NCBI RefSeq assembly: GCF_007989805.1
Contig: NZ_BJUB01000002.1
Span: forward strand, 248,001-312,000
Direction of reading: 5' to 3'
Length of the DNA: 64,000 nt
Origin: Cellulomonas xylanilytica
GTDB lineage: Bacteria; Actinomycetota; Actinomycetes; Actinomycetales; Cellulomonadaceae
Positions 9,407-41,853 of this stretch are shown here, piece after piece. The notes beneath the pieces are model-generated. The model did no database searches. It saw nothing but the letters and a program-made list of their open reading frames with translations, and was not told the DNA's origin. Made by a program: the position numbers and the translations under genes. Within the stretch, counting starts at the first letter, position 1. Each line of letters begins with the position of its first letter.

Positions 9407-11523
9407 CGGCCACCTGCCGGGAGCGACCCCGGCCGCACCTTCGCCCACACCAGCTTGCCGCCGCGCGACTGCCGCCAGCCCCAGTCGGCCAGCCGCTCGA
9501 CGATCTGCATGCCGAAGCCCCCGACCCGCCCGGGGTGCCCGTCCGTGGTGACCGGCGGTGCCGGGTTGGCGTCCTCGACCTCGATGCGCAGGCCGTCACC
9601 CGTGTCGTAGAGCTGCAGCGACACGTGCCCGAACCCGTGCAGGACGGCGTTCGCGACGAGCTCGGAGACCACCAGCTCGGCGTTCGCGGCGTCCTCGATC
9701 CCCCACGCCTGGCAGGTCCGCACCACGGCGTGCCGCGCGCGACCGATCGACGCCGCCTCGCTCGGCAGCGACCACCGGCGCCGGCGGGGGCTGCGCGTGC
9801 GCTCGGCGGTGTCCAGCGGCGACGGCACACGGACCACGACGACGGCGACGTCGTCCTCGGGGTGGTCCGCGAGCCGGGACAGCAGCTCCTCACCGACCCC
9901 CGCGGCGTCCCGCGCGGTGACGGCCGCGGCCACCGCCGACAGGGCGGCGAGCCCGTCCCGCAGGCCGCGGTCACGCCGCTCGATCAGGCCGTCGGTGTAG
10001 TAGACGACGACGTCGCCGGGCTCCAGCTCGACCGTGCCGGTGGTCCGGGGCACGCCCCCGAAGCCGATCAGCGGACCCCCGGCGGCGTCGAGCTGGGTGA
10101 CCACGCCCGCGCGGACGAGGAGCGCGGGGAGGTGACCCGCCCGCGAGTACTCCAGCCGCCAGACCTGCTCGGACCGGGTCAGCGTGGACAGCACGAGTCC
10201 CGCCGGGCGCGGCACCCGCATGCCGGCCACCAGCTGGTCGACCCGCTCCAGCACCGGACCGGGCGTCGTGATGTCGAAGATGTAGGAGCGGACGACCGAG
10301 CGCAGCTGGCCCATCGACGCCGCCGCCTCGACGTCGTGCCCGACGACGTCCCCGATGACGACGCCGATCACGTCCTGGCTGACCTGCAGCACGTCGTACC
10401 AGTCGCCGCCCACCTGGGCGTTCTCCGAGTTGGGCGCGTAGTACGTCCACACGTCCAGGCCGTCGACCTCGGCCTGCTCCGGGAGCATGGCCCGCTGGAG
10501 CGTCTCCGCAAGCCGGTGCTCGCGGTCGTAGAGGCGGGCGTTGTCGATGACGAGACCGACGCGGCGGGCCGTGAGGTCCAGGACGGTGCGCACCGACGGC
10601 TCGAGATCACGCAGCCCGTGGCCGCCGTGCGGGTGCACGACCAGCACCCCGAGCACCCGTCGGCGGCCGGGCAGCGGGAACACCAGGACGGAACGCTCCG
10701 TGGCGTCATCGGCGGGACCCAGCTGGGCGTCGGCCTGCTGCGCGAGCCACGCCGACGCGCTGCCGTCACCGTAGGAGCCGCCGAGCGCGAGCTCGACCGG
10801 CCGGTCGATCTCGGCGTCGAGGAGCTGCTGGACCACGTCGGGCCCCACCTCCCCCACCGCCTGCACGTCCCCGTGCCGCGAGCCCTTCCCCGTGGGCGGG
10901 CGTCCCGCGTCGATCCCGTCGGCGACGCGCAGGCCGCCGTCGTTGAGGTAGAACGCCGCCCAGCCGACGACGGCCCGGCGCAGGATGGTCGCGATCTCCC
11001 GCAGGGCGTGCGGGTCGTCGACGTCCATCAGGAGGTCCGAGACCTGCGCGATGAGGCCGAGGCTGCGCCGCTCGCGCCGCTCCGTCTCCACCATCGCGGC
11101 CTGCTCGGCGTCGTGCGAGAGCTGCTCGGTGAGGTCCTGGAGCGCGGCGACCCAGTGGGTCAGCGCACCGTCACCGGCGTCGCGGACCGGGGACAGGTGC
11201 GCGCGGCACGCCAGCCGGGTGCCGTCCGCGCGCCGCAGGACGATCGTGTGCGCGATCTCCCGCCCTGCTCGCAGCTCGTCCGCCAGACGGGCGATGTCGT
11301 CCTGGTGGAACGGGGTGTCGTCCAGCACAGCCGTCTGGCGGCTCCGCGCCTCCTCCACGCCGTAGCCGGTGACCCGCTCGAACGCGTCGTTCACCCAGAT
11401 CACGGGCAGATTCGTCCCCGCCGCATCCAGCAGGGCCATCGGCACGGAAGTGGACTTGAGGGCCCGGTCCCGCACCTCGGCGAGGGCCTGATCCGGAAGG
11501 GGTGAGGCGTGGGAGTTGACCAC
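9403..11523 (-). CDS. PAS-GAF-PP2C(SpoIIE)-HATPase signalling protein
   Basis: A multi-domain regulator of about 706 residues. Approximate order: PAS (20-130, PVIWVNDAFERVTGY), GAF (165-325, VGWAAFYLNDGGL), SpoIIE/RsbU-type PP2C phosphatase (345-560, GGDWYDVLQ, VIGDVVGHDVEAAASM, GDVVVYYTDGLIERRD) and an RsbW-like HATPase (580-700, ELVVSELVANAVLHGFG, GGFGMQIVERLADWGW). It therefore carries both the phosphatase that activates STAS antagonists and the kinase that inactivates them. Start: GGAGG runs into three GTG codons and the last, at 11523, has the best spacing. A longer upstream frame overlaps the divergent STAS gene and is rejected. Confidence 0.88.
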   Translation of the reverse strand: MVNSHASPLPDQALAEVRDRALKSTSVPMALLDAAGTNLPVIWVNDAFERVTGYGVEEARSRQTAVLDDTPFHQDDIARLADELRAGREIAHTIVLRRADGTRLACRAHLSPVRDAGDGALTHWVAALQDLTEQLSHDAEQAAMVETERRERRSLGLIAQVSDLLMDVDDPHALREIATILRRAVVGWAAFYLNDGGLRVADGIDAGRPPTGKGSRHGDVQAVGEVGPDVVQQLLDAEIDRPVELALGGSYGDGSASAWLAQQADAQLGPADDATERSVLVFPLPGRRRVLGVLVVHPHGGHGLRDLEPSVRTVLDLTARRVGLVIDNARLYDREHRLAETLQRAMLPEQAEVDGLDVWTYYAPNSENAQVGGDWYDVLQVSQDVIGVVIGDVVGHDVEAAASMGQLRSVVRSYIFDITTPGPVLERVDQLVAGMRVPRPAGLVLSTLTRSEQVWRLEYSRAGHLPALLVRAGVVTQLDAAGGPLIGFGGVPRTTGTVELEPGDVVVYYTDGLIERRDRGLRDGLAALSAVAAAVTARDAAGVGEELLSRLADHPEDDVAVVVVRVPSPLDTAERTRSPRRRRWSLPSEAASIGRARHAVVRTCQAWGIEDAANAELVVSELVANAVLHGFGHVSLQLYDTGDGLRIEVEDANPAPPVTTDGHPGRVGGFGMQIVERLADWGWRQSRGGKLVWAKVRPGSLPAGGR

Positions 11524-11608
11524 CACCACCTCCGATCGTCTAGCGTTCCGAACAGGCAAGTAGTCGAGAAGCGGCGCGGGCCTGGCGGAAGTAGCTGAAA
11601 GGAGCGCC

Positions 11609-12028
11609 GTGCGCGACGGTAACAGCACGATCCCCGACGGGCCTGCGGACGTCTCGCAGGCCGACCAGGGTGCCGCGATCGTGGGCGAGCCCGGAGCGGT
11701 CCAGGTCATCGTGGGGACGGACGCCACCCGCATCGTGCTCTCGGGCGAGGTCGACGCCGACCTCGGTCCCGAGCTGCAGGAGGCGACGGCGGAGGCCGAG
11801 CAGGTCGGCCTGCCCATCGAGGTCGACGCCCACCACGTCACGTTCATGGACTCGTCGGGGGTGGCCTTCCTGGCGCGCCTCTCCATCCGGTCCCAGCACC
11901 GCGTGCGCCTCCTGCGGGTGCCGCCCACCGTGCGCTTCCTCCTCGAGGTCACGCGGATCGGTGAGCTCCTGGACGTCGTCGAAGGTGACGAGGCCGGGTT
12001 CCAACCGGTCGGAGAGAGCACCAACTGA
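11609..12028 (+). CDS. STAS-domain anti-sigma factor antagonist
   Basis: A 139-residue protein with an unstructured N-terminus (about 1-28) and a STAS domain (IVLSGEVDADLGPELQEAT, then HHVTFMDSSGVAFLARL) holding the conserved phosphorylatable Ser in MDSSG. The GTG at 11609 has AAAGGAG 5-11 nt upstream. It is divergent from the PAS-GAF-PP2C-HATPase gene, so the module is STAS, phosphatase/kinase, STAS. The two STAS proteins differ at the N-terminus, so they may answer to different signals or partners. A terminator follows at once. Confidence 0.87.
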   Translation: MRDGNSTIPDGPADVSQADQGAAIVGEPGAVQVIVGTDATRIVLSGEVDADLGPELQEATAEAEQVGLPIEVDAHHVTFMDSSGVAFLARLSIRSQHRVRLLRVPPTVRFLLEVTRIGELLDVVEGDEAGFQPVGESTN

Positions 12029-12030
12029 GA

Positions 12031-12059
12031 AAGGCCCCGGACACGATGTCCGGGGCCTT
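12031..12059. terminator. Bidirectional hairpin terminator
   Basis: A perfect 13-bp stem (AAGGCCCCGGACA with TGTCCGGGGCCTT) encloses a CGA loop. It lies between the stop of the STAS gene and the stop of the convergent fba gene, and its A/T ends give short U-tracts on both strands. Confidence 0.88.
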
Positions 12060-12073
12060 CCTCGTGGTCGGCG

Positions 12074-13099
12074 TCAGGCGCCGAGCGTGTGCCCGGCCGA
12101 GCGGAGCTGGCGCGAGGCCTCCGCGATGCGCTGGGCCATGCCGGCCTCGGCGAGCTTGCCCCAGGCGCGCGGGTCGTAGGCCTTCTTGTTGCCCACCTCG
12201 CCGTCGACCTTGAGCACGCCGTCGTAGTTGCGGAAGAAGTGGTCCGCCACCGGACGGCTGAACGCGTACTGCGTGTCCGTGTCGATGTTCATCTTGATGA
12301 CGCCGTTGTCGACGGCCTCGGCGATCTCGGCCTCGGTCGAGCCGGAGCCACCGTGGAACACCAGGTCGAACGGGTTCTCCTTGCCGATGGCGTCGCCGAC
12401 GGCCTTCTGGATCTCGGCGAGGATCGACGGACGCAGCTTGACCGCGCCGGGCTTGTAGACGCCGTGCACGTTGCCGAACGTGAGGGCCGTCAGGTAGCGG
12501 CCCTTCTCGCCCGCACCGAGCGCCTTGACCGTGGCCAGGCCGTCCTCGACCGTGGTGTAGAGCTTGTCGTTGATCTCGGCGGTGTGGCCGTCCTCCTCGC
12601 CACCGACCACGCCGACCTCGATCTCGAGGATCGTGCGGGCCTGCACCGAGAGCTCGAGGAGCTCCTCGGCGATGACCAGGTTCTCGTCCAGCGGCACGGA
12701 CGAGCCGTCCCACATGTGCGACTGGAACGTGGGGAGCTTGCCGGCCTTGACCTGCTCGATCTCGAGCGCGAGCAGCGGGCGGACCCAGGAGTCCAGGTTC
12801 TGCTTGGCGCAGTGGTCGGTGTGCAGCGCGACGGTGACCGGGTAGCCCTTGGCCACCTCGGCCGCGTACGCGGCGAGGGCGAGCGAGCCGGCGATGCGGT
12901 CCTTGACGGTCGAGCCGGCCGCGTACTCGGCGCCGCCGACGGACACCTGGATGATGCCGTCGGACTCCGCCTCGGCGAAGCCCTGCAGCGCGGCGGTGAC
13001 GCTCTGGGACGACGTGACGTTCACGGCCGGGTAGGCGAACTTGCCTGCCTTCGCCCGGTCGATCATCTCGGCGTAGACCTCGGGGGTGGCGATGGCCAT
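12074..13099 (-). CDS. fba: Class II fructose-bisphosphate aldolase
   Basis: Cleaves fructose-1,6-bisphosphate to dihydroxyacetone phosphate and glyceraldehyde-3-phosphate in glycolysis and runs in reverse in gluconeogenesis. The 341-residue product has the zinc/catalytic motif VALHTDHCAK, then ILEIEVGVVGGEEDG, TFGNVHGVYKPG, FHGGSGS and KMNIDTDTQYAF. These give the zinc His and Glu ligands and the phosphate-binding Gly-rich loop. AGGAG lies 9 nt before the ATG at 13099; an ATG nine bases earlier is too close to that site. It follows the SpoU methyltransferase gene by 84 bp on the same strand. Confidence 0.97.
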   Translation of the reverse strand: MAIATPEVYAEMIDRAKAGKFAYPAVNVTSSQSVTAALQGFAEAESDGIIQVSVGGAEYAAGSTVKDRIAGSLALAAYAAEVAKGYPVTVALHTDHCAKQNLDSWVRPLLALEIEQVKAGKLPTFQSHMWDGSSVPLDENLVIAEELLELSVQARTILEIEVGVVGGEEDGHTAEINDKLYTTVEDGLATVKALGAGEKGRYLTALTFGNVHGVYKPGAVKLRPSILAEIQKAVGDAIGKENPFDLVFHGGSGSTEAEIAEAVDNGVIKMNIDTDTQYAFSRPVADHFFRNYDGVLKVDGEVGNKKAYDPRAWGKLAEAGMAQRIAEASRQLRSAGHTLGA

Positions 13100-26701: not shown

Positions 26702-27181
26702 TCAGGCCCCGTACCGGCGGCGCTGGAGCTCGCGGACCTCGTCGGCGAGCTCGGGCACCGGCCCCTCGACCGGCAGCCCCGGCGCCACCGTGGCGATCGG
26801 GAGGGCGGCGACGGGCCCCGCGGGGACGCCCCACTCGGCGCGCCAGCCGGCGGTCTGGGCCGACGACGACGCGTACACGATCCGGCCGAGGCCGACCCAG
26901 GCGTGGGCGGCCGCGCACATCGGGCAGTGCTCGCCGGACGTGTAGACGGTGGACGCGGCGCGCTCCTCCGGCGTCAGGTGGTGCACGGACCAGCGGGCGA
27001 TCTCGAGCTCGGGGTGCCGGGTCTCGTCCCCGTCCTTGACGCGGTTGCGGTCCTCGAACCGGACCGTGCCGGCGGGGTCGACGAGGACGGAGCCGTACGG
27101 CTCGTCGCCGTCGTCGAGGGCCTCGCGGGCGAGGTCGACAGCGCGCCGCAGGTGGGTGAGGTCGACCTCGGTGATCGTCAT
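26702..27181 (-). CDS. Nucleoside/nucleobase deaminase family protein
   Basis: A 159-residue zinc-dependent deaminase starting MTITEVDLTHLRRAVDLARE. Zinc and catalytic residues are in RHPELEIARW (HxE) and SGEHCPMCAAAH (CxxC); the usual Pro before the first Cys is His. VLVDPAGTVRFEDRNRVKDG before the HxE is the N-terminal strand pair of the CDA fold. The group includes guanine deaminases and related enzymes; the substrate is unproven. The ATG overlaps the TGA of the upstream kinase-like gene by 4 bp, so they are co-translated. Confidence 0.87.
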   Translation of the reverse strand: MTITEVDLTHLRRAVDLAREALDDGDEPYGSVLVDPAGTVRFEDRNRVKDGDETRHPELEIARWSVHHLTPEERAASTVYTSGEHCPMCAAAHAWVGLGRIVYASSSAQTAGWRAEWGVPAGPVAALPIATVAPGLPVEGPVPELADEVRELQRRRYGA

Positions 27182-28152
27182 CGGCCCACCGTGGCGGCCA
27201 GCACGCGGGCGCGCAACCGGCGCCGGTGCTCGACCACGGAGGCGCGCAGGTCCGCCGACCACGGCGCCTCGTCGGGTGCCGGGTCGGCCGCCACGTGCGC
27301 GATCGAGACGAGCAGGCGGACCGCGACCGCGGCGCTGTGCAGCTCCAGCGCGGACACGTCCGCGTCGGACAGGGGGCGTACCTCCCGGTAGCCGGCGATG
27401 AAGTCCGCGAGCAGCTCCGGGTGCTCGACGCTGCCGGGCGTGTCACCGAGCAGGTCGCGCACCGCCGCCGCGACGTCCTGGACGAACGGGCCGGTACGCG
27501 CCTCGTCCGCGTCGAACGCGACGGGCCGACCGTCGGCCCATCGAAGGTTGTCCAGCTCGAGGTCGCCGTGCAGGGTGCCCCGGGGCGACCCGAGCAGCGA
27601 CGCGTCGTCGAGGACGGCGTGCGCGGCAGCGTGCAGGACGGGGTCGTCGCCGAGCACGGCGAGGTCCAGGGGCGGCGGCTCGTCCGCGGCGGCCAGGGCC
27701 GGTGCGTCGCGGTGGAGGCGCGCCAGAGACGCTCCCCAGGACTGCGCGAGCGGCGGTGTCAGGTCGTCGAGCGTCACCTCCTCCCCCGGCGCGGCACGGA
27801 CGACCGTGGCGTGCACGGGGCCGAGCGCGGTGGGCACCGTCTCGACGAGCCGGCCGGCCGTCGACGGCACGGGGGCGACGGTGCAGCCGTGCACGGACCA
27901 CGCGGCGAGCAGGCGGGCCGGCGCCGCCAGGTCCCGGACGGTGCGGAGCGACGCCGGGACGAAGCGCACGAACAGAGCGCCGCGCGCGTCGACGTCAGCG
28001 GGGACGACGAACACGTGCGTCGCGCTGGAACGGAGCCATCGGGCCTCGCCCGGGGCGATCCCCCAGGCAGCCGCGACCTCGTCGGCCACCGGGCTGCGCC
28101 AGGACGCGTCGACGGTGGCGCCGACGCGGGCGATCTCGCTGAGGGGAAGCAT
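27178..28152 (-). CDS. Aminoglycoside-phosphotransferase-fold kinase
   Basis: A 324-residue protein of the APH/choline-kinase superfamily starting MLPLSEIARVGATVDASW. The catalytic loop is GTLHGDLELDNLRW (Asp of HGD and the Asn), and the magnesium site is VAFDADEARTGPF. The N-lobe is reduced (HVFVVPADVDARGALFVRFV). Such proteins phosphorylate small molecules such as homoserine, choline, sugars or drugs; nothing here tells which. It is coupled to the deaminase by a 4-bp ATGA overlap, suggesting a joint role in a nucleoside-like or modified metabolite. An upstream in-frame extension shows no homology. Confidence 0.82.
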   Translation of the reverse strand: MLPLSEIARVGATVDASWRSPVADEVAAAWGIAPGEARWLRSSATHVFVVPADVDARGALFVRFVPASLRTVRDLAAPARLLAAWSVHGCTVAPVPSTAGRLVETVPTALGPVHATVVRAAPGEEVTLDDLTPPLAQSWGASLARLHRDAPALAAADEPPPLDLAVLGDDPVLHAAAHAVLDDASLLGSPRGTLHGDLELDNLRWADGRPVAFDADEARTGPFVQDVAAAVRDLLGDTPGSVEHPELLADFIAGYREVRPLSDADVSALELHSAAVAVRLLVSIAHVAADPAPDEAPWSADLRASVVEHRRRLRARVLAATVGR

Positions 28153-28238
28153 CCGCGCATCCTCGCGGGGCTGGGCCCGTCCGGTCGTGGGGAATTCCGG
28201 CGACCGTTTCGGGCGGTGCCAGCGAGAACGGCACTTCA

Positions 28239-28291
28239 CGACGAGGTCGGCAGTTGCAACTCACGCGTTCGTCTCCCAGTGCCGACCTCGT
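28239..28291. repeat. Intergenic inverted-repeat element, copy 1
   Basis: ACGAGGTCGGCA at 28241-28252 pairs with TGCCGACCTCGT at 28280-28291 around a 27-nt loop that includes the palindrome GTTGCAAC. The first 36 bases match the reverse complement of 52356-52391 at 28 of 36 positions. The rest of the 231-bp gap (28153-28384) shows nothing else I can assign. Confidence 0.7.
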
Positions 28292-29606: not shown

Positions 29607-30890
29607 ATGCCGACGGACCAGCCCGACACCGCACCGAGCGACCTCGCCCCGGCGGCGAGCGGGACCGCGATCCGGTCCGCCGAGGTGCTCGTCAGCAGCC
29701 CGGACCGCAACTTCGTCACGCTGCGGATCACGACCGAGGACGGCGTGGTCGGGCTCGGCGACGCGACGCTGAACGGCCGAGAGCTGTCCGTGGCGTCCTA
29801 CCTGTCCGACCACGTGGTGCCGCTGCTGCTGGGCCGGGACGCGCACCGCATCGAGGACACCTGGCAGTTCCTCTACCGCTCCGCGTACTGGCGGCGCGGG
29901 CCGGTGACCATGGCGGCGATCGCCGCGGTCGACGTGGCGCTCTGGGACATCAAGGCCAAGGTCGCCGGGCTGCCGCTGTACCAGCTGCTCGGCGGCGCCA
30001 GCCGGACCGGGATCATGGCGTACGGGCACGCGAGCGGCCGGGACCTGCCCGAGCTGTTCGACTCGATACGCAAGCACCAGGAGCAGGGCTTCCGCTCCAT
30101 CCGCGTGCAGACCTCGGTGCCGGGCATCGACGCCGTCTACGGGGTGGCCGCGCAGCCGTCCTCATCGGGCCGCTACGACTACGAGCCCGCCCAGCGCGCT
30201 CCCCTGCCGGCCGAGGAGGACTGGGACACCCGCGCCTACCTGCGGCACATCCCCACGGTCTTCGAGGCGGTCCGCAACGAGTTCGGCCCCGAGCTGCCCC
30301 TGCTGCACGACGGGCACCACCGGATGACCCCCATCCAGGCCGCCCGCCTGGGCAAGGACCTGGAACCGTACGACCTGTTCTGGCTCGAGGACTGCACGCC
30401 CGCGGAGAACCAGGAGGCGCTGCGGCTGGTCCGGCAGCACACCACCACGCCGCTGGCCATCGGCGAGGTGTTCAACACCGTGTGGGACTACCAGACCCTC
30501 GTGCGCGAGCAGCTCATCGACTACGTGCGGTCGGCCGTCACGCACACCGGCGGCATCAGCGCCCTGCGCAAGATCCTCGACTTCGCCGCGCAGTACCAGA
30601 TCAAGTCCGGCATCCACGGGCCGACGGACATCTCCCCGGTCGGCATGGCCGCCGCCCTGCACCTCGACCTCGCGATCCACAACTTCGGCATCCAGGAGTA
30701 CATGCAGCACGGGTCGCGCACCGACGAGGTGTTCCGCCAGACGTTCACCTTCGAGGACGGCTACCTGCACCCCGGTGAGGTGCCCGGCCTGGGCGTCACC
30801 TACGACGACGACGCGGCCGCGCGCTACCCGTACCAGGCGGCGTACCTGCCGTTCAACCGGCTCAAGGACGGCACGGTGCACGACTGGTGA
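29607..30890 (+). CDS. manD: D-mannonate dehydratase (enolase superfamily, ManD/RspA)
   Basis: Dehydrates D-mannonate to 2-keto-3-deoxy-D-gluconate in glucuronate catabolism. The 427-residue protein has the enolase capping domain then the barrel. ManD active-site residues are visible: Arg166 (SIRVQTS), Tyr178 (DAVYG), the metal ligands Asp235 (with His237 in LLHDGHH), Glu261 ([10 protein letters not shown]) and Glu287 (AIGEVFN), and a late His in SGIHGPTD. This full set favours true ManD over the low-activity relatives. The ATG at 29607 has GGACGGAG upstream. Its TGA overlaps the GTG of the GH67 gene, tying glucuronate release to its catabolism. Confidence 0.93.
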
Positions 30891-32953
30891 CGGGCGTGCA
30901 CCCGATGTGGCTGCCCGACGAGGCGTTCCGGGCGCTGGGGTCGCGACGCGTGCTCGTCGCCGTCGGACCGGACGCCGGACCGGTCGCCGGGACGGTCGTC
31001 GCGGAGGTGGCGGCCGCCACGGCGCGGTTCGGCGGTCACCTGGTGACCGCACCCGTGAGCGTCGACGAGGTGCTCGCCAGCGACGTGGTCCTCGCCATCC
31101 TCGGGAGCGGGGGGCAGGTGGGCGCCGAGCCGGCCGTGCAGGCGGCGCTCGAGGGCGGGTTCGTCCTCGGCGCGGACGCACCGATGAGGTCTGGGGCGTT
31201 CACGGTCGAGCGGCAGGACGGCACGACGGTCGTCGTGGCAGCCGACGCCGCAGGCCTCCTGTACGGGCTGCACGCGCTGGTCCGTCGGGGCGAGGACGCC
31301 TTCTCGGGGTCCCACCAGGTGGTGCGGGACCAGCCGGTCAACGGCATCCGCATGCTCGACCACTGGGACAACATGACCGTGCACCCGGTCATGGGCCAGG
31401 TGGAGCGCGGGTACGCGGGCGGGTCGATCTTCTACACCGACGGCCGCGTCCGCGACGACCTGTCGAGGGTGGCCCGGTACGCGCGGCTGCTCGGGTCCGT
31501 CGGGATCGACGCGGTCGGCCTGAACAACGTCAACGTGCACGCGACCGAGGCCCGGCTGCTGACGGACCACCTCGACGACGTCGCCCGGCTGGCCGACGTC
31601 TTCCGGCCGCACGGAATCCGCGTGTTCCTGTCCGCGAGCTTCGCGGCGCCGCTGACCGTCGGCGGCCTCCCCACGGCGGACCCGCTGGACCCGGCGGTGC
31701 AGGACTGGTGGGCGTCCGCGGTCCGCCGCGTCTACGAGACGGTCCCGGACTTCGGCGGGTTCGTCGTGAAGGCGGACTCGGAGGGCCAGCCGGGTCCGTT
31801 CGCGTACGGCCGCGACCACGCCGACGGCGCGAACCTGCTGGCCCGGGCGCTCGCACCGTTCGGCGGCACGGTGTTCTGGCGGGCGTTCGTCTACGACCAC
31901 CACCAGGACTGGCGGGACCGGTCCACCGACCGGGCCCGGGCCGCGCACGACCACTTCACGCCGCTGGACGGCCGGTTCGACGACAACGTGGTCCTGCAGG
32001 TCAAGTACGGCCCGATGGACTTCCAGACCCGTGAGCCGGTCTCTCCCGTGATCGCTGGCATGCCCCGGACACGGCTCGCCGTCGAGCTGCAGGTGACGCA
32101 GGAGTACACGGGCCAGCAGCAGCACGCGGTCTACCTCGGGCCGCAGTGGGAGCAGATCCTCGCGTTCCGGCTGGCCGAGGACGGGCGCACGGTCGGGGAC
32201 GTCGCCGCCGGGCTGCCGGAGGGTCGACCCGCGGGGCTCGTCGCCGTCTCGAACGTCGGCACCGACGAGTTCTGGACCGGCCACCCGCTCGCGCAGGCGA
32301 ACCTCTACGCGTTCGCGCGGCTGGCATGGGGAGCCCACGACCCGCTCGCGATCCTCGACGAGTGGGCCGGCCTGACGTTCGGCGACGACCCGGCCGTCCG
32401 CGCCGCGGTGCATGCGGTCCTCGACGACTCGTGGCGGACCTACGAGCGGTACACCGCCCCGCTCGGCGTGGGGTTCATGGTGCGACCCGGCCACCACTAC
32501 GGCCCCGACGTCGACGGCTACGAGTACACCGCCTGGGGCACGTACCACTTCGCCGACCGCGACGGCATCGGCGTCGACCGCACGCGCGCGACCGGCACCG
32601 GCTTCACCGGCCAGTACGCGGCCCCGTGGCGGGACGTCTACGAGTCCGTGGAGACGTGCCCGGACGAGCTGCTGCTGTTCTTCCACCACGTCCCGTACAC
32701 CCACGTCCTGCACAGCGGGTCGACCGTCGTCCAGCACATCTACGACACCCACGCGGACGGGTACGACGAGGTCGTGCGGATGGCGTCGGCATGGGAGCAG
32801 GTCCGGGGACGAGTGCCGGACGCGCTGTTCGACCGGGTCACGCAGCGGCTGGCGGAGCAGGAGCGCAGCGCCCGCGAATGGCGCGACCAGCTGCGGTCGG
32901 CGTTCTTCCGCCGCTCCGGCATCCCGGACGCGACGGGCCGCACGATCTACTGA
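30887..32953 (+). CDS. aguA: Alpha-glucuronidase, GH67
   Basis: Removes 4-O-methyl-D-glucuronic acid from the non-reducing end of aldouronic acids derived from glucuronoxylan. The 688-residue enzyme has the GH67 N-terminal domain (1-150), the catalytic barrel with acid Glu299 in [11 protein letters not shown], general-base pair Asp378 in [12 protein letters not shown] and Glu406 in [10 protein letters not shown], and a long C-terminal helical domain. There is no signal peptide, so it is cytoplasmic, as most GH67 enzymes are. It starts 4 bp inside the manD stop (GTGA) and is surely co-translated. The gene ends 70 bp before the convergent first paralogue. Confidence 0.95.
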
Positions 32954-33023: not shown

Positions 33024-34811
33024 TCAGGGTGCGACGACGAACCCGGCGACGTCGGCGGCCACGTGCACGGTGTGCCCCGGTGCCGTGTCGGAGTACATCG
33101 TCACGGTTGCCGGGCCCGTGTCCGGCAGGTCCACGACGACGAGGTTGGGGATGTCCCGTCCGGGGATGTAGTTGATCGTCGACGCGTCGGGAACACCTGA
33201 CCCGCCGGGGTACACCCGGAGGTTGCCCAGGCTGCTCGGCGCGATCGCGGTGACGTTGAGGACCACGGAGGTCGCCCCGGCCGGCACGAGCGTGCTGGGA
33301 AGCTCGACCGTGTACTCCTTCTTCGCCTGGAGCGGCCCGGCGACCGTGCCGACACGCCCACCGCCGGGACGGGTGTCGAGGACACGGGTCGGCGTCGTGG
33401 CCCGGTACGGGCTCCTCGCGGTCACGTAGCCGACGACGTCGAGGATGACGTGCGCGGTGGACCCGCCGGCGTCGGAGACGAACGAGACCTCCCCCGACGA
33501 CGGCAGCTGCACGATCGTCTGGTTCGCCTTGTCGTTGCCGGGGGCGTAGTTGACCACCGACGCGTTGGGCACCGGCGTCCCGGCCGGGAAGATGCGCAGG
33601 TTGCCCAGGCCGGTGGTCCCCGTCACCGTCGCGTTGAGGATCACGGCCAGCGCGTCGTTCGGCACCCAGCCCTCGCCACGCACCATGACGGTCTGCACGG
33701 CGCCCGAGGGCACCGGCCCCGACACGGGACCGATCTGACCGGTGTCGGACCGGGTGTCGAGGATCCGGAACGGATCCGCCAGCACCACGCCCGAGCTCCC
33801 CATGACGAAGCCGGTCAGATCGAGAAGTACCCGGGCGCCCGCCACCCCTCGGGCGTGGTAGCAGATCCTGCCGCTGTCGGACAGCGCGACGAAGGCAGAG
33901 TTGGCGACCTCACGGCCCACCTCGAAGTTCACCGTGGAGGTCGTCGGGACCGGCGTGAGCGTGGTCCCCTCGGGGTAGACCGCGACGTGCCCGGAGCCGT
34001 ACGGCGCGATGGCGGTGACGTTCAGCACGACCCCAGTGGCGCCGGCGGGGACACCGTTCGTCTGGCCCACCTGCAGGCACCTCGAGGCCTGCGCGCTGTC
34101 CGCCCAGACGTCGAGGATCCGCACCGGGACCCGGGACACGATTCCCGGCTCCGTGTCGACGAGCTGCACCGGGACGGCGTTCGACGTGCCGGCCAACGTC
34201 GTCACCACGACGTCGACCGTGCCCGCCGCAAGCTTCGGGACATAGACGGAGATCGAGCGGTCCGACGAGATGAGGCCGGTTCCGGGCACTCCGCCGAACG
34301 TCACGCTCGTGGCTCCCCCGAGGTGCGAGCCGACGATGTCGACGCGCTGGTCGCGGCGGGCCGGCAGGACCGTCGGCCGCACGCTGGAAACGACCGGAGC
34401 GGTGCGAGCGACCACGGCGAACGACTGCCCGAAGGACTGACCCGACGGACCGAACCGACCGTCACCGGGGTACCAGGCTTCGATGCGGTAGGACCCGACG
34501 TCCAGGTCGTCGAACGTCAGCGACGCCGTGCCGTCGACGAGGGGGACGGAGGTCGCCGGACCGAGGTCGAGCGAGACGTCGACCGTTCCCGTCGGGACGC
34601 CCTCCTCGGACCGGACGTCGATGGTGACCGTCACCGCGTCGCCGACGAACGTCGCCCGCGGATACGTCATGAACGTCGCCGTCTCGACGAGAGCGGGGTC
34701 GTCCGCAGCCGTGGCCGGCTGCACGATGCCCGCGACCGCGACCGCGGCCACGCCGACGACCGCGAGGACGCGGCGCAGCGACAGGCGTCGATGCGTGGCG
34801 GTCGGGTTCAT
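33024..34811 (-). CDS. Secreted Ig-like/IPT/LDTR-module protein, paralogue A
   Basis: A 595-residue secreted protein of unknown function. Signal peptide 1-36 ends QPATAA. An Ig-like (Big_3_5-type) domain covers about 40-135 (VTVTIDVRSEEGVPTGTVDV), and an IPT/TIG domain about 138-222 (VDIVGSHLGGATSVTFGGVPG). Three related beta-rich modules then start at VPVRILDV (about 228), FRILDTR (348) and TRVLDTR (475), each running through LNVT, N(F/Y)xxGR/GND and ending DLTGF, DVVGY or DVAGF. Module 1 has Cys245 and Cys317, a likely disulfide. No LPXTG, SLH or transmembrane anchor is present. AAGGAG precedes the ATG. It is last of three tandem paralogues. Confidence 0.88.
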   Translation of the reverse strand: MNPTATHRRLSLRRVLAVVGVAAVAVAGIVQPATAADDPALVETATFMTYPRATFVGDAVTVTIDVRSEEGVPTGTVDVSLDLGPATSVPLVDGTASLTFDDLDVGSYRIEAWYPGDGRFGPSGQSFGQSFAVVARTAPVVSSVRPTVLPARRDQRVDIVGSHLGGATSVTFGGVPGTGLISSDRSISVYVPKLAAGTVDVVVTTLAGTSNAVPVQLVDTEPGIVSRVPVRILDVWADSAQASRCLQVGQTNGVPAGATGVVLNVTAIAPYGSGHVAVYPEGTTLTPVPTTSTVNFEVGREVANSAFVALSDSGRICYHARGVAGARVLLDLTGFVMGSSGVVLADPFRILDTRSDTGQIGPVSGPVPSGAVQTVMVRGEGWVPNDALAVILNATVTGTTGLGNLRIFPAGTPVPNASVVNYAPGNDKANQTIVQLPSSGEVSFVSDAGGSTAHVILDVVGYVTARSPYRATTPTRVLDTRPGGGRVGTVAGPLQAKKEYTVELPSTLVPAGATSVVLNVTAIAPSSLGNLRVYPGGSGVPDASTINYIPGRDIPNLVVVDLPDTGPATVTMYSDTAPGHTVHVAADVAGFVVAP

Positions 34812-34857
34812 GCTGGTGCTCCTTCGAGCGTCTCGGCAGTGAAGGGCGCGGCGCGCG

Positions 34858-36648
34858 TCAGGGAGCGACGACGAACCCGGCGACGTCGGCGGCGAGCCAG
34901 ACGCTGCCGTAGGCGACCATGTCGGAGTACACCCTGAACGTCGCCGGGCCGGAGTCCGGCAGGTCGACGACCACCAGGTTGGGGATGTCACGACTCGGGA
35001 TGTAGTTGACCGTGGACGCGTTGGGAACATCAGAACCGGTCGGGTACACCCGCAGGTTGCCGAGGCCGCTGGGCGCCATCGCCGTGACGTTGAGGACGAC
35101 CGAGGTCGCCCCGGCCGGGACCATCTCGCTGGGCAGCGTGACCGTGTGAGCCCTCAGCGCCCGCAGCGCCCCCCTCGTCGGGCCGACCTGCCACTGCCCC
35201 CCACGGGTGTCGACGACGCGGGTCGGCGTCTGGCCGCGGTAGACGCCCCCGTCGGTCACGTAGCCGACGACGTCGAGGATGACGTGCGCGGTGGACCCGC
35301 CGGCGTCGGAGAGGAAGGAGAGCTTTCCGGACGACGACAGCTGCACGATCGTCTGGTTCGCCTTGTCGTACCCGGGCGCGTAGTTGACGACCGACGCGTT
35401 CGGGACCGCTGTCCCCGCGGGGTAGATCCGCAGGTTCCCCGGGCCGACGGTGCCGGTGACCGTGGCGTTGACGATCACCGCCGTGGCATCGGCGGGCACC
35501 CCTGCCTTGCCACGGACCTGGACGGTCTGCACGACACCGGACGGCACAGGCCCCGAGACGTCACCGACCTGAGCCGGCCCGGGCCGGGTGTCGAGGAGCC
35601 GGACAGGGTCCTGCAGCTCCATGCCGGAGCCCTCCATCACGAAGCCCGTCAGGTCGAGGAGCACGCGGGCGCCACCGAAGCCTCGGGCGTCGTAGCAGAT
35701 CCTGCCGTTGTCGGGCAGCGCGACGAAGGCGGCGTTCGCGACCTCGCGGTTGTACTCGAAGTTCACCGTGGAGGCCGTCGGGACCGGCCCGAGCGGACCC
35801 CGGTCTGGGTAGACGACGAGGTTGCCCGGCCCGTACGGGGCGATGACCGTGACGTTCAGGACCACGCCGGTGGCGCCGGCGGGGACGCCGTTCGTCTCCC
35901 CCACCTGCAGGCAGCTCGGCGACGACGGGTACGCCCAGGAGTCGTGGATCCTCACGGGCACCGTGGACACGATGCCGGCGCGCGTGTCGACGAACTGCAC
36001 GGGGACACCCGCCGACGTCCCGGCGGGCGTGGTCACGACCAGGTCGACCGTGCCCGCGGCGTGCCGGGGGATGTCGACGTCGATCCTGCCGGTCGATGTC
36101 ACGGCGAGGTTGGTACCGGGAACGCCGCCGAAGGTGACGCTCGTGGCGCCCGCGAGGTACGACCCGATCACGGAGATACGGACGTCGTGGTCGGACGGCA
36201 GGACGGCGGGCTGGACGGCCGAGACGGTCGGCGCGACACGTTGGATCACCCAGAGCTCCAGCACGGAGGTCTGGAACGACGGACCGAAGCCGCCGTCGCC
36301 CGCGTAGTCGGCCCAGATGTGGTGCTGCCCGACGCCGACGTCCTCCAGCGTCAGTGACGCGGTGCCGTCCACGAGGGGGACGGGAGTCAGCGCACCGAAG
36401 TCCAGAGAGATGCCGACGCTGCCGGTCGGGACACCCTCGGCCGCCGAGACCGTCACGGTGACCGTCACCGGGTCCCCGACGAAGACCGCCTCCGGGACGC
36501 TCGCCACGGTCGTGGTCGTGATCAGGGCGGAGCCGGCCGCCGCGGTGGCCGGCTGCACGGCGCCGGCGACGGCGAGCGCGGCGATGCCGAGGACCGCCAG
36601 GACGCGCCGCAGCGCCCGGAGTCGGTGGTGCACGGGTGCGGGGCTCAT
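34858..36648 (-). CDS. Secreted Ig-like/IPT/LDTR-module protein, paralogue B
   Basis: A 596-residue protein with the same order as its neighbours: signal peptide 1-37 (VQPATAAA), Ig-like domain (VTVTVTVSAAEGVPTGSVGI), IPT domain (SVIGSYLAGATSVTFGGVPG), and modules opening VPVRIHDS, VRLLDTR and TRVVDTR. Module 1 holds the Cys pair in PSCLQVGE and GRICYDA. It shares long near-identical runs with paralogue A, especially NATVTGT, GGSTAHVILDVVGYVT and the last 20 residues. The ATG at 36648 has AAGGAGC upstream. The gap to paralogue A is 46 bp and to C is 102 bp, so one transcript is likely. Function unknown. Confidence 0.88.
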   Translation of the reverse strand: MSPAPVHHRLRALRRVLAVLGIAALAVAGAVQPATAAAGSALITTTTVASVPEAVFVGDPVTVTVTVSAAEGVPTGSVGISLDFGALTPVPLVDGTASLTLEDVGVGQHHIWADYAGDGGFGPSFQTSVLELWVIQRVAPTVSAVQPAVLPSDHDVRISVIGSYLAGATSVTFGGVPGTNLAVTSTGRIDVDIPRHAAGTVDLVVTTPAGTSAGVPVQFVDTRAGIVSTVPVRIHDSWAYPSSPSCLQVGETNGVPAGATGVVLNVTVIAPYGPGNLVVYPDRGPLGPVPTASTVNFEYNREVANAAFVALPDNGRICYDARGFGGARVLLDLTGFVMEGSGMELQDPVRLLDTRPGPAQVGDVSGPVPSGVVQTVQVRGKAGVPADATAVIVNATVTGTVGPGNLRIYPAGTAVPNASVVNYAPGYDKANQTIVQLSSSGKLSFLSDAGGSTAHVILDVVGYVTDGGVYRGQTPTRVVDTRGGQWQVGPTRGALRALRAHTVTLPSEMVPAGATSVVLNVTAMAPSGLGNLRVYPTGSDVPNASTVNYIPSRDIPNLVVVDLPDSGPATFRVYSDMVAYGSVWLAADVAGFVVAP

Positions 36649-36750
36649 GGGGCGCTCCTTCGACGGTGGCTCGGCGGAGCCGACCCTAGGGCATCGCGCG
36701 CGGCGACGTGTGCGCTCGTGGGACCTGGCGGACTACGCGGAAAGCATCGG

Positions 36751-38529
36751 TCAGGGAGCGACCACGAACCCGGCGACGTCGGCAGCGACGTGGACCGTGC
36801 CGCCGGGCGCCATGTCCGAGTACAGGGTCACAGTCGCCGGGCCGGTGTCCGGCAGGTCGACCACCACGAGGTTGGGGATGTCCCGTCCAGGGATGTAGTT
36901 GATCGTCGACGCGTTGGGCACACCCGATCCGCTCGGGTACACCCGCAGGTTGCCGAGCGAGGTGGGCGCGATCGCGGTGACGTTGAGGACCACCGACGTC
37001 GCTCTGGCCGGGACGATCGCGCTGGGCAGGGTGACCGTGTAGGGCGTGCCGGCCTGCACCGAACCGGCGATCGAGCCGACCTGTCCCGGCCCGGGTCGCG
37101 TGTCGAGCACGCGGACGGGCGCCTCGCCCCGGTACCGGCCTCCGGCGGTGACGTAGCCGGCGACGTCGAGGATCACGTGCGCGGTGGAGCCCCCGGCGTC
37201 GGAGAGGAACGAGATCTGCCCGGACGGGGACAGCGGAACGATCGCCAGGTTCGCCTTGTCCCGCCACGGTGCGTAGTTGACGACCGACGCGTTCGGCACG
37301 GGGGTCCCCGCGGGGAAGACGCGCAGGTTGCCGGGTGCCGTGGTCCCCGTGACGGTCGCGTTCAGGATGACTGCGGTCGCGTTCGCGGGCACCCCCGCCT
37401 TGCCGCCCACCTGCACGGTGTGGACGGTGCCCGAGGACACCGCCCCCTGCACCTCTCCGACGGCGTCGAACCCGGACCTCGTGTCCAGGAGCCGGACCGG
37501 GCTCAGGAGCTCGACACCGGAGCCCGGCATCGTGAAGCCGGTGACGTCGAGCAGCACGACAGCGGACAGGCCCTCGACCCGGAAGCAGATCCGGCCGTCG
37601 GGAGACAGGGGGACGAAGGCAGCGTTCGCGACGTCCCGTCCGGGCTCGAAGTTCACCGTGGACGTCGTCGGCAGGCCCAACGGGTACCGGATGTCCGGGT
37701 AGACGACGACGTAGCCGGGCTCGAAGGCTCCCCAGGTGGTGACGTTCAGGGTCACCGCAGCCGCTCCCGACGGGACGACGCTCGTCCCGGCGACCTGGAC
37801 GCACGTCGGCGCGTAGCCGATGCGCTGGTCTGTGTCGAGGCGCACGGGTGTGCGCGAGACCAGTCCGGCGCTCGCGTCGACAACCTCCAGGAGGAACGGC
37901 TTCGACCGACCGGCCGGCGTCGTCACGACGACGGGGACCAGACCAGGTGCCACGGCAGGCATGTCGACACGCAGCGAGATGGTGTCCCACGACTCGTAGA
38001 TCTTCCCGGCCAGCCCACCGAACGTGACCTTGGTGGCGCCGGCGAGATGGGATCCGCTGAGGTCGATCTCCTCGACCCGGTTGGCGACGACCATCTTCGA
38101 GACCTTGGTGACGACCGGGGCCACGGGTTCGAGGACCCACCCGTGCGACGTCCCGATGGATGGCTGCAGGTCGTCTGTTCCGAGGTACCAGGCCGAGGCG
38201 CTGTAGTCCCCGACGGGAAGTCCGTCGACCTGCACCTGCGCGACGCCGTCGACCAGCGGGAGCGTCTGGTCAGCGCGACCGGTGATCCGGAAGGTCACGC
38301 TGCCCGTCGGGATGGGCGCCGCGGACGAGACGGTCGCGGTGAACACCACCGGGCTTCCCGCGACCACGGCGTGCGCCGAGGCGACGAGCACGGTGTCCGT
38401 GTTTGCCCGCTCCACCGTGGGGACGGCCGCGCCGGCTGTGGCGGTCCCGATGGTCGTCACGACGACGGCCACGAGCGCGAGCAGGCGTCGCAGCGTGCGG
38501 TGGCGATGGGTTGCGAGGCCGGCGGTCAT
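36751..38529 (-). CDS. Secreted Ig-like/IPT/LDTR-module protein, paralogue C
   Basis: A 592-residue member, first of the tandem set. Signal peptide about 1-34 (TTIGTATAGAAVP), Ig-like domain with VVFTATVSSAAPIPTGSVTF, IPT domain with DLSGSHLAGATKVTFGGL, then modules opening TPVRLDTD, VRLLDTR and VRVLDTR. The N-terminal half is clearly more diverged from A and B than the last two modules, which suggests either relaxed selection on the front or gene conversion at the back. The Cys pair (PTCVQVAG, GRICFRV) is kept. The start has AGGAG upstream. The 137-bp gap to the divergent oxidoreductase probably holds the promoter. Confidence 0.88.
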   Translation of the reverse strand: MTAGLATHRHRTLRRLLALVAVVVTTIGTATAGAAVPTVERANTDTVLVASAHAVVAGSPVVFTATVSSAAPIPTGSVTFRITGRADQTLPLVDGVAQVQVDGLPVGDYSASAWYLGTDDLQPSIGTSHGWVLEPVAPVVTKVSKMVVANRVEEIDLSGSHLAGATKVTFGGLAGKIYESWDTISLRVDMPAVAPGLVPVVVTTPAGRSKPFLLEVVDASAGLVSRTPVRLDTDQRIGYAPTCVQVAGTSVVPSGAAAVTLNVTTWGAFEPGYVVVYPDIRYPLGLPTTSTVNFEPGRDVANAAFVPLSPDGRICFRVEGLSAVVLLDVTGFTMPGSGVELLSPVRLLDTRSGFDAVGEVQGAVSSGTVHTVQVGGKAGVPANATAVILNATVTGTTAPGNLRVFPAGTPVPNASVVNYAPWRDKANLAIVPLSPSGQISFLSDAGGSTAHVILDVAGYVTAGGRYRGEAPVRVLDTRPGPGQVGSIAGSVQAGTPYTVTLPSAIVPARATSVVLNVTAIAPTSLGNLRVYPSGSGVPNASTINYIPGRDIPNLVVVDLPDTGPATVTLYSDMAPGGTVHVAADVAGFVVAP

Positions 38530-39666: not shown

Positions 39667-40342
39667 ACTGCGCCTCCGCGGCCGCGACGACGGGTGCGGC
39701 GGTGCGCGCGTAGAGGTAGGTCAGCGGGGCGGCGAGCAGGACGAGGAGCCAGTCGGACGCGTAGGCCGCCGCTGCCGTCAGGACGAGCACCGACCCGAGC
39801 CCGAGCGTGACCAGCGGCTTGCCCGCCAGGTAGTACGCCCCGAGCCGGGCGACGTCGCGGGTACGGAAAGAGAAGAGCGCACTGAGCACCAGCGCGTGCC
39901 CGGACCAGAGCAGGAGCAGCAGCGCGATCGCCCCGAGCGCGACGCCGAGGACCGGCGGGATGCCCGCGGCGCCCAGGTGCGTCAGGTTGACCGCGACCAC
40001 CGCGAGCACGGCGAGCGTCGGCACCCACCAGCGGAGCACGTCGAGGACGTCGAGCCGGTACCCGCGCCAGAAGTGCCGTGCCGGGGACAGGTCGCGGTCG
40101 CGCGCGAACACCCGCCACGCGAACAGCGCCGCCGCGACCGACGGGCCCACCGGCACGCACGCCAGGGCGACCAGCGGGATGTTGCTGACGTCCCGGTCGA
40201 GCAGCTGCAGGAGCACCAGGCCCGGTGCGGACGTCAGGACCAGCATCGCCTCGACCACGAGGAACCAGTAGACGACAGCGGACCAGCGCGCGAGAGGGCC
40301 GGTGCCGATCTCGTCGTCCGGCTTCGTCGTCATGGCGGTCAT
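39656..40342 (-). CDS. DUF624/YesL-like integral membrane protein
   Basis: A 228-residue membrane protein with about five to six hydrophobic segments (VVYWFLVVEAMLVLTSAPGL, VALACVPVGPSVAAALFAW, VPTLAVLAVVAVNL, LLLLLWSGHALVLSALF). Its layout matches DUF624/YesL proteins, which sit in polysaccharide-use operons with LplB/LplC-type importers in Bacillus and actinobacteria. Their role is not settled; a part in assembly or control of the transporter is a guess. The ATG overlaps the TGA of the GH39 gene (ATGA), so it is the last gene of the GH3-led operon. Confidence 0.82.
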   Translation of the reverse strand: MTAMTTKPDDEIGTGPLARWSAVVYWFLVVEAMLVLTSAPGLVLLQLLDRDVSNIPLVALACVPVGPSVAAALFAWRVFARDRDLSPARHFWRGYRLDVLDVLRWWVPTLAVLAVVAVNLTHLGAAGIPPVLGVALGAIALLLLLWSGHALVLSALFSFRTRDVARLGAYYLAGKPLVTLGLGSVLVLTAAAAYASDWLLVLLAAPLTYLYARTAAPVVAAAEAQFTA

Positions 40343-41853
40343 CCCATCACGTCCTGCCCGAGCAGCCGTCGGTCGTCCAGCCCGGGGTGCTCGTCGGGGG
40401 TCACCGGCAGGAGCTCGACCAGCGTCACCTCGTGCTGCCCGAGCACCAGATCCAGGTCCACGTAGCCGTTCTCGGCGGTCAGGGAGGAGTGCCGTACCGC
40501 GGGCGCGGACGCGTCGCGCAGCAGGTCGAGCACGCGCTCGGACGGGTTCCGAGGCCGGCCGAGCTCCCGCCAGGCCGACCAGGCGTTGCCCTCGGTCTCG
40601 TTCACCGAGCGCCGGACGACCGCCACGTCCGAGCCGACCGGGAGCCGCAACCGCACCTCGTGGGTGGCCGGCGCGGAGCCGTAGGGACCGTCATCGGAAC
40701 CCCCGACCGGCTGCCACGCGAGGACCGTCACGCGTCCGTCGTCGTCCCGGCACACGAGGTGGTCGTCGCCGCGGGCCAGCACCGAGAAACCCATGCGGGC
40801 CAGGAACGCGTACAGGTGGTAGGTCGGCTTGCGCACCTGGCGGTGGGTCAGCAGGCCGAAGCCCCCGTGGAACAGGGACGTCGGGATGTCGGCCTCCTCG
40901 AACACGTCGCAGAACGTCCAGTACGAGAACGACTCGACCAGGTCCCCGCCGCCGGCGAGGACGGGTGCCAGGTAGGCGGCGTTCCAGGCCGTGTCGTGGA
41001 CCGGGTTGTCCGGGCGGTAGGAGGTGTTGAACTCGCTGATGTGCACGGGCAGCCCCGCGAGCGGGGTCCCGGCCAGGTGCCGGCGCGGGGCGTCGAACTG
41101 GTCGAGCAGCGTCTGCGGCCGCTCGAACGTCTGGTAGACCCCGAACGGCACGGGCTGGGCAGGTCCCGACGAGTACGCGTGCCGGCTGACGAAGTCGATG
41201 GGCACGTCCCGCGACGCGACGAAGTCGGCGAAGGGCGCCCACCACTCGTCGGACCCCGGCGACAGGACCGGGCCACCGACCTGCAGGGACGCGTCGACGT
41301 CCTTCACCGCGCGGGCCGTCGCCTCGTACAGCCGGAAGTACGCGGCCTGGTCGGCGCCCTCCCAGAACACGTCGAGGTTCGGCTCGTTCCACACCTCGAT
41401 CGGCCAGGTCCGGACCTCCTCCAGCCCGTAGCGGTCGATCAGGTGGCGCAGCACCGCGCGGACCATCGCGGCCCACTCGTCGTGCGAGCGCGGGGGCGTG
41501 ACGTTGCCCTTCCACCAGAACACCGTCTGGTCCCCCGACGCGAGCGCCGACGGCATGAAGCCGAGCTCGAGGAACGGCTTGAGGCCGATCCGCAGCCACG
41601 AGTCGACCACCTGGTCGACGTAGGTGAACGTGTACCGGGTGACACCCTCGGACTGGCGCAGCACCCCCATGTCGTCGGACAGCAGGCCGTGGCCGCGGAT
41701 GTACCGGAACCCGATCTCGCGCTGCACCAACGCGGCGGACTCCTGGTAGTCGGCGCGCAGGGCGAGGTTGAGGCGGCCGGTGCCGACGCACTCGCGCCAC
41801 GCGGCGGGCAGAGGACCAGAGGGCTGGGAGGGGATGTCGACGCGGTTGTTCAT
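40339..41853 (-). CDS. Beta-xylosidase-like glycosidase, GH39
   Basis: A 504-residue retaining glycosidase of clan A. After the strand with REIGFRYIRGHGLLSDDM come acid/base Glu157 in IEVWNEPNLDVFWEG and nucleophile Glu274 in VHISEFNTSYRP, both textbook GH39. A C-terminal beta-sandwich ends with QHEVTLVELLPV. Most characterised GH39 bacterial enzymes are beta-xylosidases, so action on xylo-oligosaccharides is likely. There is no signal peptide. It overlaps GH42 upstream and the YesL-like gene downstream by 4 bp each, showing tight translational coupling. Confidence 0.92.
   Translation of the reverse strand: MNNRVDIPSQPSGPLPAAWRECVGTGRLNLALRADYQESAALVQREIGFRYIRGHGLLSDDMGVLRQSEGVTRYTFTYVDQVVDSWLRIGLKPFLELGFMPSALASGDQTVFWWKGNVTPPRSHDEWAAMVRAVLRHLIDRYGLEEVRTWPIEVWNEPNLDVFWEGADQAAYFRLYEATARAVKDVDASLQVGGPVLSPGSDEWWAPFADFVASRDVPIDFVSRHAYSSGPAQPVPFGVYQTFERPQTLLDQFDAPRRHLAGTPLAGLPVHISEFNTSYRPDNPVHDTAWNAAYLAPVLAGGGDLVESFSYWTFCDVFEEADIPTSLFHGGFGLLTHRQVRKPTYHLYAFLARMGFSVLARGDDHLVCRDDDGRVTVLAWQPVGGSDDGPYGSAPATHEVRLRLPVGSDVAVVRRSVNETEGNAWSAWRELGRPRNPSERVLDLLRDASAPAVRHSSLTAENGYVDLDLVLGQHEVTLVELLPVTPDEHPGLDDRRLLGQDVMG

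Follow-up and report, generated by a model that had tools for sequence, protein, structure and literature searches.

What is built from three copies of one unannotated module, and what does it do? The question is raised by a 64,000-nucleotide stretch of Cellulomonas xylanilytica (contig NZ_BJUB01000002.1, positions 248,001 to 312,000; hereafter the window), in which three paralogous genes, A (33024..34811, 595 residues), B (34858..36648, 596 residues) and C (36751..38529, 592 residues), each encode a signal-like N-terminus, an Ig-like domain, a TIG domain and three C-terminal copies of a module that we call LDTR. We propose that each triplet forms, within one natural chain, a pseudo-trimeric head that binds a glycan or a cell surface, and we consider this reading probable. 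The pseudo-trimeric architecture appears well supported by structure prediction and copy number together, while any one ligand that might be named for the head would have a less than even chance of being the right one.

All three genes are read from the minus strand, one behind the other, with gaps of 102 bases between C and B and 46 bases between B and A, and because these gaps are so short the genes are probably co-transcribed, with C probably transcribed first. A simple scan found no promoter-like or terminator-like site around them. Protein A shares 68% identity with B and 56% with C, and the N-termini, judged by eye, suggest that all three are secreted. Only two families pass the Pfam and NCBIfam cut-offs, namely Big_3_5 (E 2e-12, 3e-14 and 4e-12 in A, B and C) and TIG (E 6e-8 and 1e-6 in A and B; 9e-4 in C, slightly below the Pfam cut-off). 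On the minus strand, Big_3_5 occupies 34437..34658 in A (residues 52-125), 36268..36501 in B (residues 50-127) and 38155..38385 in C (residues 49-125), followed by TIG at 34197..34397 (residues 139-205), 36001..36231 (residues 140-216) and, as a TIG-like domain in C, 37912..38118 (residues 138-206). About 375 residues per protein then match neither Pfam nor NCBIfam, and these are the LDTR modules, which in the order 1, 2 and 3 are encoded on the same strand at 33801..34145, 33420..33800 and 33027..33419 in A, at 35635..35976, 35254..35634 and 34861..35253 in B, and at 37528..37866, 37147..37527 and 36754..37146 in C. The initial annotation of this locus, made from the DNA letters, had described three tandem paralogues with this domain order, and our searches confirm it.

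The nine modules of the window (about 125 residues) are homologous, as each matches the other eight in an all-against-all blastp comparison in which the weakest match has an E value of 3e-9. Modules 2 and 3 of one protein are 44–50% identical, and equivalent modules of different paralogues are 53–82% identical. In an alignment inspected by eye, module 1 has a decayed LDTR motif, is short of about a dozen residues in its first hairpin and holds the sole cysteine pair, the last of which had already been noticed. No sequence search placed the module in a described family. Among 42 modules compared with Pfam at E values up to 10, with HMMER filters on, there was no match to the C1q or TNF families, and there was none in the three proteins at E values up to 1. 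No carbohydrate-binding module (CBM) family was listed for the three proteins in Pfam or NCBIfam, or for the 42 modules in Pfam, which gave only scattered single matches; the best, pAdhesive_15 at E 9e-4, occurred in one member and did not recur. Sequence searches of the PDB with one protein and two profiles reached an E value of only 0.25. Membership of the C1q/TNF or CBM families was set aside for want of such a match. A catalytic role was also set aside, as no enzyme family was found in the three proteins, in line with the absence of a catalytic motif noted earlier. Literature searches in the open-licence part of PubMed Central, aimed at the motif or at a natural single-chain C1q/TNF trimer, turned up no account of the module, and a description in print elsewhere is possible.

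Structure prediction was more informative. The triplet of protein B (residues 220-596) was modelled with AlphaFold2 from ten sequences, with a mean predicted local distance difference test (pLDDT) of 87.0, no residue below 50 and a predicted template modelling score (pTM) of 0.87. Because a pTM of this height was obtained for three domains, their relative placement is predicted with confidence. The top 1000 PDB chains of a Foldseek search were subjected to a second structural alignment, in which 980 were aligned, and its four best matches are one-chain C1q/TNF trimers that align over the whole model: the single-chain APRIL-BAFF-BAFF protein 4zch (rank 1, Z 14.7, root-mean-square deviation (rmsd) 5.3, 326 residues), the single-chain C1q head 5hzf (Z 14.3, rmsd 4.9, 316 residues), the Cbln1 C1q trimer 5kca (Z 12.8, rmsd 5.5, 322 residues) and single-chain adiponectin 4dou (Z 12.3, rmsd 5.1, 301 residues). 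Three of these are titled as single-chain proteins; 5kca was taken as a one-chain trimer because the matched range, 59-477, falls within one 807-residue chain. From rank 5 onward, matches with Z of at least 8 cover about one module only, among them the tip of the Bdellovibrio bacteriovorus protein Bd2133 (Z 10.5 and 10.2) and Ena3A (Z 8.3). Threefold packing of the three domains was thus found in the predicted model (Z 12.3–14.7 over 301–326 residues). The linkers are correspondingly short, with a median of 5 residues, a 5–95% range of 3–10 and a maximum of 13 across 232 module junctions. It is the arrangement of the whole triplet, together with these linkers and the collagen or BclA_C partners of some single-module relatives described below, that resembles the C1q/TNF trimers; in contrast to the LDTR triplet, the single-chain forms 5hzf, 4dou and 4zch are man-made, and the 42 modules have no Pfam C1q/TNF match. 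A search of BFVD with the triplet gave partial matches (TM score 0.45–0.50), among them giant-virus proteins and one Caudovirales entry named as a C1q domain-containing protein. These may be further one-chain trimers, in which case the arrangement would perhaps not be unique to the LDTR family.

Copy number provides the second line of evidence. The regions around module matches were picked from the match lists regardless of copy number, and tandem arrays were counted on the DNA in six frames with an iterated profile; this census replaced a first count that was biased by frameshift pieces. From 172 arrays, 8 at a locus edge and 1 with a best hit below 30 bits were dropped, and the remaining 163 contained one (32), two (7), three (118), four (2), five (3) or seven (1) copies. 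By this raw count, 35 of the 43 genomes or records had triples and 7 had singles alone. The exceptions were resolved from coordinates and translations. Each of L010 (1+2), L123 (1+2, module 2 being interrupted by an insertion) and L211 (1+1+1, separated by another domain) proved to be one open reading frame (ORF) with three modules, L210 has two modules and, by eye, a degenerate third, and the two four-copy arrays of L005, from Cellulomonas sp. Leaf334, are three modules with a frameshift. Two arrays of L126 and one of L128, frameshifted and from genome G054, and the truncated L207 were kept out of the resolved count. Among the 155 resolved proteins, 124 have three modules, 26 have one, 4 have two and 1 has five. 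The two-module proteins are found at L215 (two genes), L080 and L085; in L215 and L080 the copies are near-identical, and it is possible that a third copy collapsed in assembly. The control was Big_3_5 in 14 of these genomes, 11 of which gave matches; among the 108 matches listed, which may miss weak Ig copies, 28, 25 and 10 ORFs had one, two and three copies. Set against this control, the contrast between two and three or more copies gives a Fisher p of 1.5e-17, a value that is descriptive only, as neither set is phylogenetically independent. The initial annotation had treated the three copies as a tandem repeat and overlooked both the near-obligatory number of three and the single pseudo-threefold head that they are predicted to build.

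Several broken or enlarged genes were seen beside these counts. Both Leaf334 paralogues (L005:9495-10627 and 11422-12617) are frameshifted at the same place in module 3, which may reflect repeat-driven gene conversion or an assembly error. L126 and L128 carry several frameshift-broken LDTR genes, perhaps decayed copies or sequencing errors, and the sole five-module protein seen (L117:7284-9215) has two degenerate modules followed by three strong ones.

A tree of 377 modules indicates how the number three has persisted. Of 115 triplets, monophyly was recovered for 17, of which 14 reach a support of 0.8, and 232 of 345 modules are nearest to the module at the same position in a protein of another genome. 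Therefore, it seems that an old triplet has mostly been inherited, with some renewal or re-triplication back to three.

The relatives with one module are also relevant to this reading. Module 2 of protein C, modelled singly with AlphaFold2 from 26 sequences (pLDDT 95.1), has its best PDB matches in the Bd2133 tip (8ond and 8ok3, Z 9.8, rmsd 2.9–3.2 over 106–108 residues; next Z 7.6). Foldseek also places this tip at ranks 1–3 (E 1.7e-4 to 7.3e-4), followed by BclA heads, a trimeric cement protein of phage KHP40 and others; in the PDB alignment, collagen X and VIII NC1 domains and CD40L score Z 6.2–6.4. According to PMC10769870, the Bd2133 tip, of the MAT family, is a beta-sandwich, three of which pack together where the stalk ends; other tips of that fibre family are TNF-like, and one of them binds glycans. 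The likeness lies in the predicted fold of the single module, at about 10% identity and with no sequence-profile match. In Bd2133, each of three identical chains contributes one domain to a homotrimer that sits on a trimeric beta-helix, whereas here three modules are fused behind Ig and TIG domains; neither a beta-helical stalk nor an N-terminal MAT domain was found, their place being taken by Big_3_5 and TIG. A clear match to a well-described domain, which the initial annotation had named as a refutation, did not emerge at the sequence level; at the level of predicted fold, there is a match to a solved but recently described tip of unknown ligand. As no sequence profile links the module to C1q, TNF, CBM or Bd2133, we suggest a threefold arrangement and a resemblance, and not membership of any of these families.

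Some single-module relatives are built to trimerise, with BclA_C or collagen partners. L114 contains BclA_C (E 1e-14), L154 and L156 have collagen repeats above the Pfam cut-off and the collagen stretch of L076 lies below it; a collagen pattern was seen in 3 of the 26 singles and in none of 118 triples (Fisher p 0.005). GVYG-type repeats in L205 and a coiled-coil-like stretch in L235 resemble trimerisers by eye only, with nothing above the Pfam cut-off. An 819-residue ORF (L211:5953-8409) has three units of another domain plus LDTR and looks like the stalk and head of a trimer that have been fused.

If the triplet is such a head, the three C-terminal modules would fold as beta-sandwiches and pack around a pseudo-threefold axis, giving a compact, single-chain counterpart of the C1q/TNF-like and MAT-tip heads that are made elsewhere from three chains. 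After export, the Ig-like and TIG domains would form a short stalk and the head would be the working part, binding a glycan or a cell surface, perhaps through pockets between modules. At this locus, such binding could help the cell to use hemicellulose or to attach to plant material. Both the binding and the place of the proteins after export are conjectural. Among the known systems to compare is the mussel protein HcC1qDC6, with three tandem gC1q domains in one secreted chain; its gC1q domains bind bacteria and pathogen-associated molecular patterns (PMC5519582). It differs in belonging to the animal C1q family, and that text never mentions 'trimer'.

A number of observations weigh against this reading. 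No sequence link joins the module to C1q, TNF or Bd2133. Foldseek's own ranking of the triplet begins with unrelated beta proteins (TM score at most 0.25) and is not led by trimers; the single-chain trimers surface only in the second alignment. The single module scores Z 6.3–7.1 against CBM36, CBM35 and CBM22 sandwiches, and the jelly-roll protomers of C1q/TNF (Z 6.2–6.4) are no closer to it than these unrelated domains. Proteins with two or five modules do exist. Moreover, 22 of 26 singles lack a collagen or BclA_C partner visible in Pfam or by eye, and in an Acidobacteriota metagenome-assembled genome (MAG) many single modules are C-terminal on enzymes; because of both, a single module may function without trimerising. 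Finally, the close homologues L119 and L125 adjoin MFS_3 and DUF4012 genes and no glycoside hydrolase (GH) genes. These neighbours weaken a xylan-specific role, and a role in xylan use only was set aside.

The strongest functional rival keeps the pseudo-trimer and reverses the bound end. The triplet would then be a cell-wall anchor that grips the envelope glycopolymer of its own cell and displays the attached Ig stalk, protease or amidase. The partners are what make this attractive, as the triplet stands at the C-terminus in 97 of 113 in-frame triples (at the N-terminus in 13) and is joined to many different proteins. When 66 of 79 listed partner stretches were aligned and scanned, the best 25 of 49 families included Peptidase_S8 (11), Big_5 (10), SpoIID (9), Amidase_2 (9), FG-GAP_3 (8) and RCC1 (7), and SpoIID and Amidase_2 are wall-active. 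The SLH and CWB2 anchors have folds that differ from the predicted LDTR beta-sandwich. They offer a parallel nonetheless, in that three tandem motifs form one pseudo-trimer on many unrelated secreted proteins; three SLH motifs make a pseudo-trimer and three CWB2 motifs a triangular prism in which all are needed (PMC8056022). Neither SLH (PF00395) nor CWB2 (PF04122) matched the three proteins at E values up to 1 or the 42 modules at E values up to 10, and no LPXTG sorting signal was seen by eye in proteins that end in ...ADVAGFVVAP; the absence of LPXTG and SLH reported earlier therefore holds at these depths. The window proteins display nothing beyond Ig and TIG, and such a wall ligand would not be expected in the Acidobacteriota MAG or the virus contigs that have single modules. 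A binding tip is favoured by proteins that consist of stalk and head only and by the collagen-bearing single-module forms of Gram-negative and virus sequences. We regard an anchor as less likely than not.

Still less probable is a beads-on-a-string arrangement, in which each module would be an independent sandwich of carbohydrate-binding type, the three together would raise avidity and their number would be a historical accident. The CBM-like scores of the single module and a locus full of glycoside hydrolase genes are compatible with this idea. Copy number, however, passes over two (4 of 155 proteins) and larger values (1 of 155), which the Big_3_5 control does not do; the pTM of the triplet and its rigid alignment to one-chain trimers also speak against the idea, and the monophyletic triplets suggest that renewal of the copies preserves or restores the number three. 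We consider it very unlikely that the proteins are the building blocks of a many-copy surface layer, sheath or fibre. Three paralogues in a row, beta-rich, secreted and without enzyme domains, might suggest it, but enzymes of monomer type carry the same triplet, the module is absent from 37 of the 60 genomes sampled in the genus, which would be odd for a structural layer, and no known polymerisation motif is present. Among the functions first proposed for these genes, an adhesin or carbohydrate-binding scaffold therefore fits better than a sheath or fibre subunit.

The window neighbours encode MR_MLE, GH67, oxidoreductase, GH39, GH42, solute-binding, permease and GH3 proteins, in keeping with the earlier remark that the genes sit next to GH67/ManD among polysaccharide genes. 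The GH67 alpha-glucuronidase family gene (30887..32953, plus strand) is a neighbour in Cellulomonas sp. Leaf334 as well, and the GH39 family gene (40339..41853, minus strand) is conserved in L005 and L118. Leaf334 has two paralogues at the same place, between GH39/GH42/transport genes and GH67/ManD, and genome G049 shows GH42, GH39 and two module genes up to the contig end. In L119 and L125, a variable stalk of two to seven CarboxypepD_reg repeats precedes the Ig, TIG and terminal triplet. An ORF at 27178-28239 on the minus strand of the window, which adjoins the MR_MLE gene, matches APH phosphotransferases (E 8e-9).

The module is scattered in its distribution. In the 4.44-Mb genome of C. xylanilytica, its profile finds nine copies, all within A, B and C. 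A profile of six window modules matched 23 of 60 genomes of the genus and 19 of 296 of the phylum, and a broader profile of 42 modules matched 25 of 396 genomes of the phylum; such a profile search had been proposed when the locus was first described. Beyond the phylum, matches were found in one Chloroflexi MAG (34) and one Acidobacteriota MAG (16), where contamination is possible, and once each in two IMG/VR virus contigs. The module is indeed unannotated, as first stated, and is not confined to the tails of actinobacterial secreted proteins. In the Acidobacteriota MAG (G356, L152-L164) it occurs singly, and many copies have, by eye, cysteines in PCR and CGxP motifs, possibly a second type of disulphide unlike the module-1 pair of the window. 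The virus contigs, so called by IMG/VR, each encode a protein with a signal-like N-terminus and one LDTR module (L076:5881-6909 and L077:5893-6792). In L076, a short collagen stretch follows the module, tail-fibre-like genes lie upstream and the protein matches tail families solely over the collagen stretch; the neighbourhood of L077 has no informative PHROG. Virus scans with both proteins returned the same two contigs and nothing more, and tblastn of named phages with the L076 protein or gene C gave no match. Two ORFs at L085 (5888-11044 and 2829-4961) encode Rhs-like repeat proteins with internal LDTR modules, and the second and third modules of the shorter ORF are fused.

More broadly, and tentatively, the LDTR triplet may be a widespread, unnamed natural single-chain trimer. 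On this view, a head that some phage, Acidobacteriota and actinobacterial proteins build from three chains became fused into one, its threefold number was retained or restored several times, and secreted monomeric enzymes and adhesins can carry it; it may constitute a third three-part grip beside SLH and CWB2 in Actinomycetota and Chloroflexota. If the pseudo-trimeric reading is correct, nature already makes the one-chain threefold head that has been engineered for C1q, adiponectin and TNF-family ligands. It would give a function-bearing structure to a module so far without annotation and would explain why the copy number is three or one. It would also provide a stable asymmetric trimer scaffold in which three faces held in one chain are free to diverge, each evolving separately. 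The faces of the window proteins have already diverged, as shown by the order of the modules and by the lost hairpin and cysteine pair of module 1.

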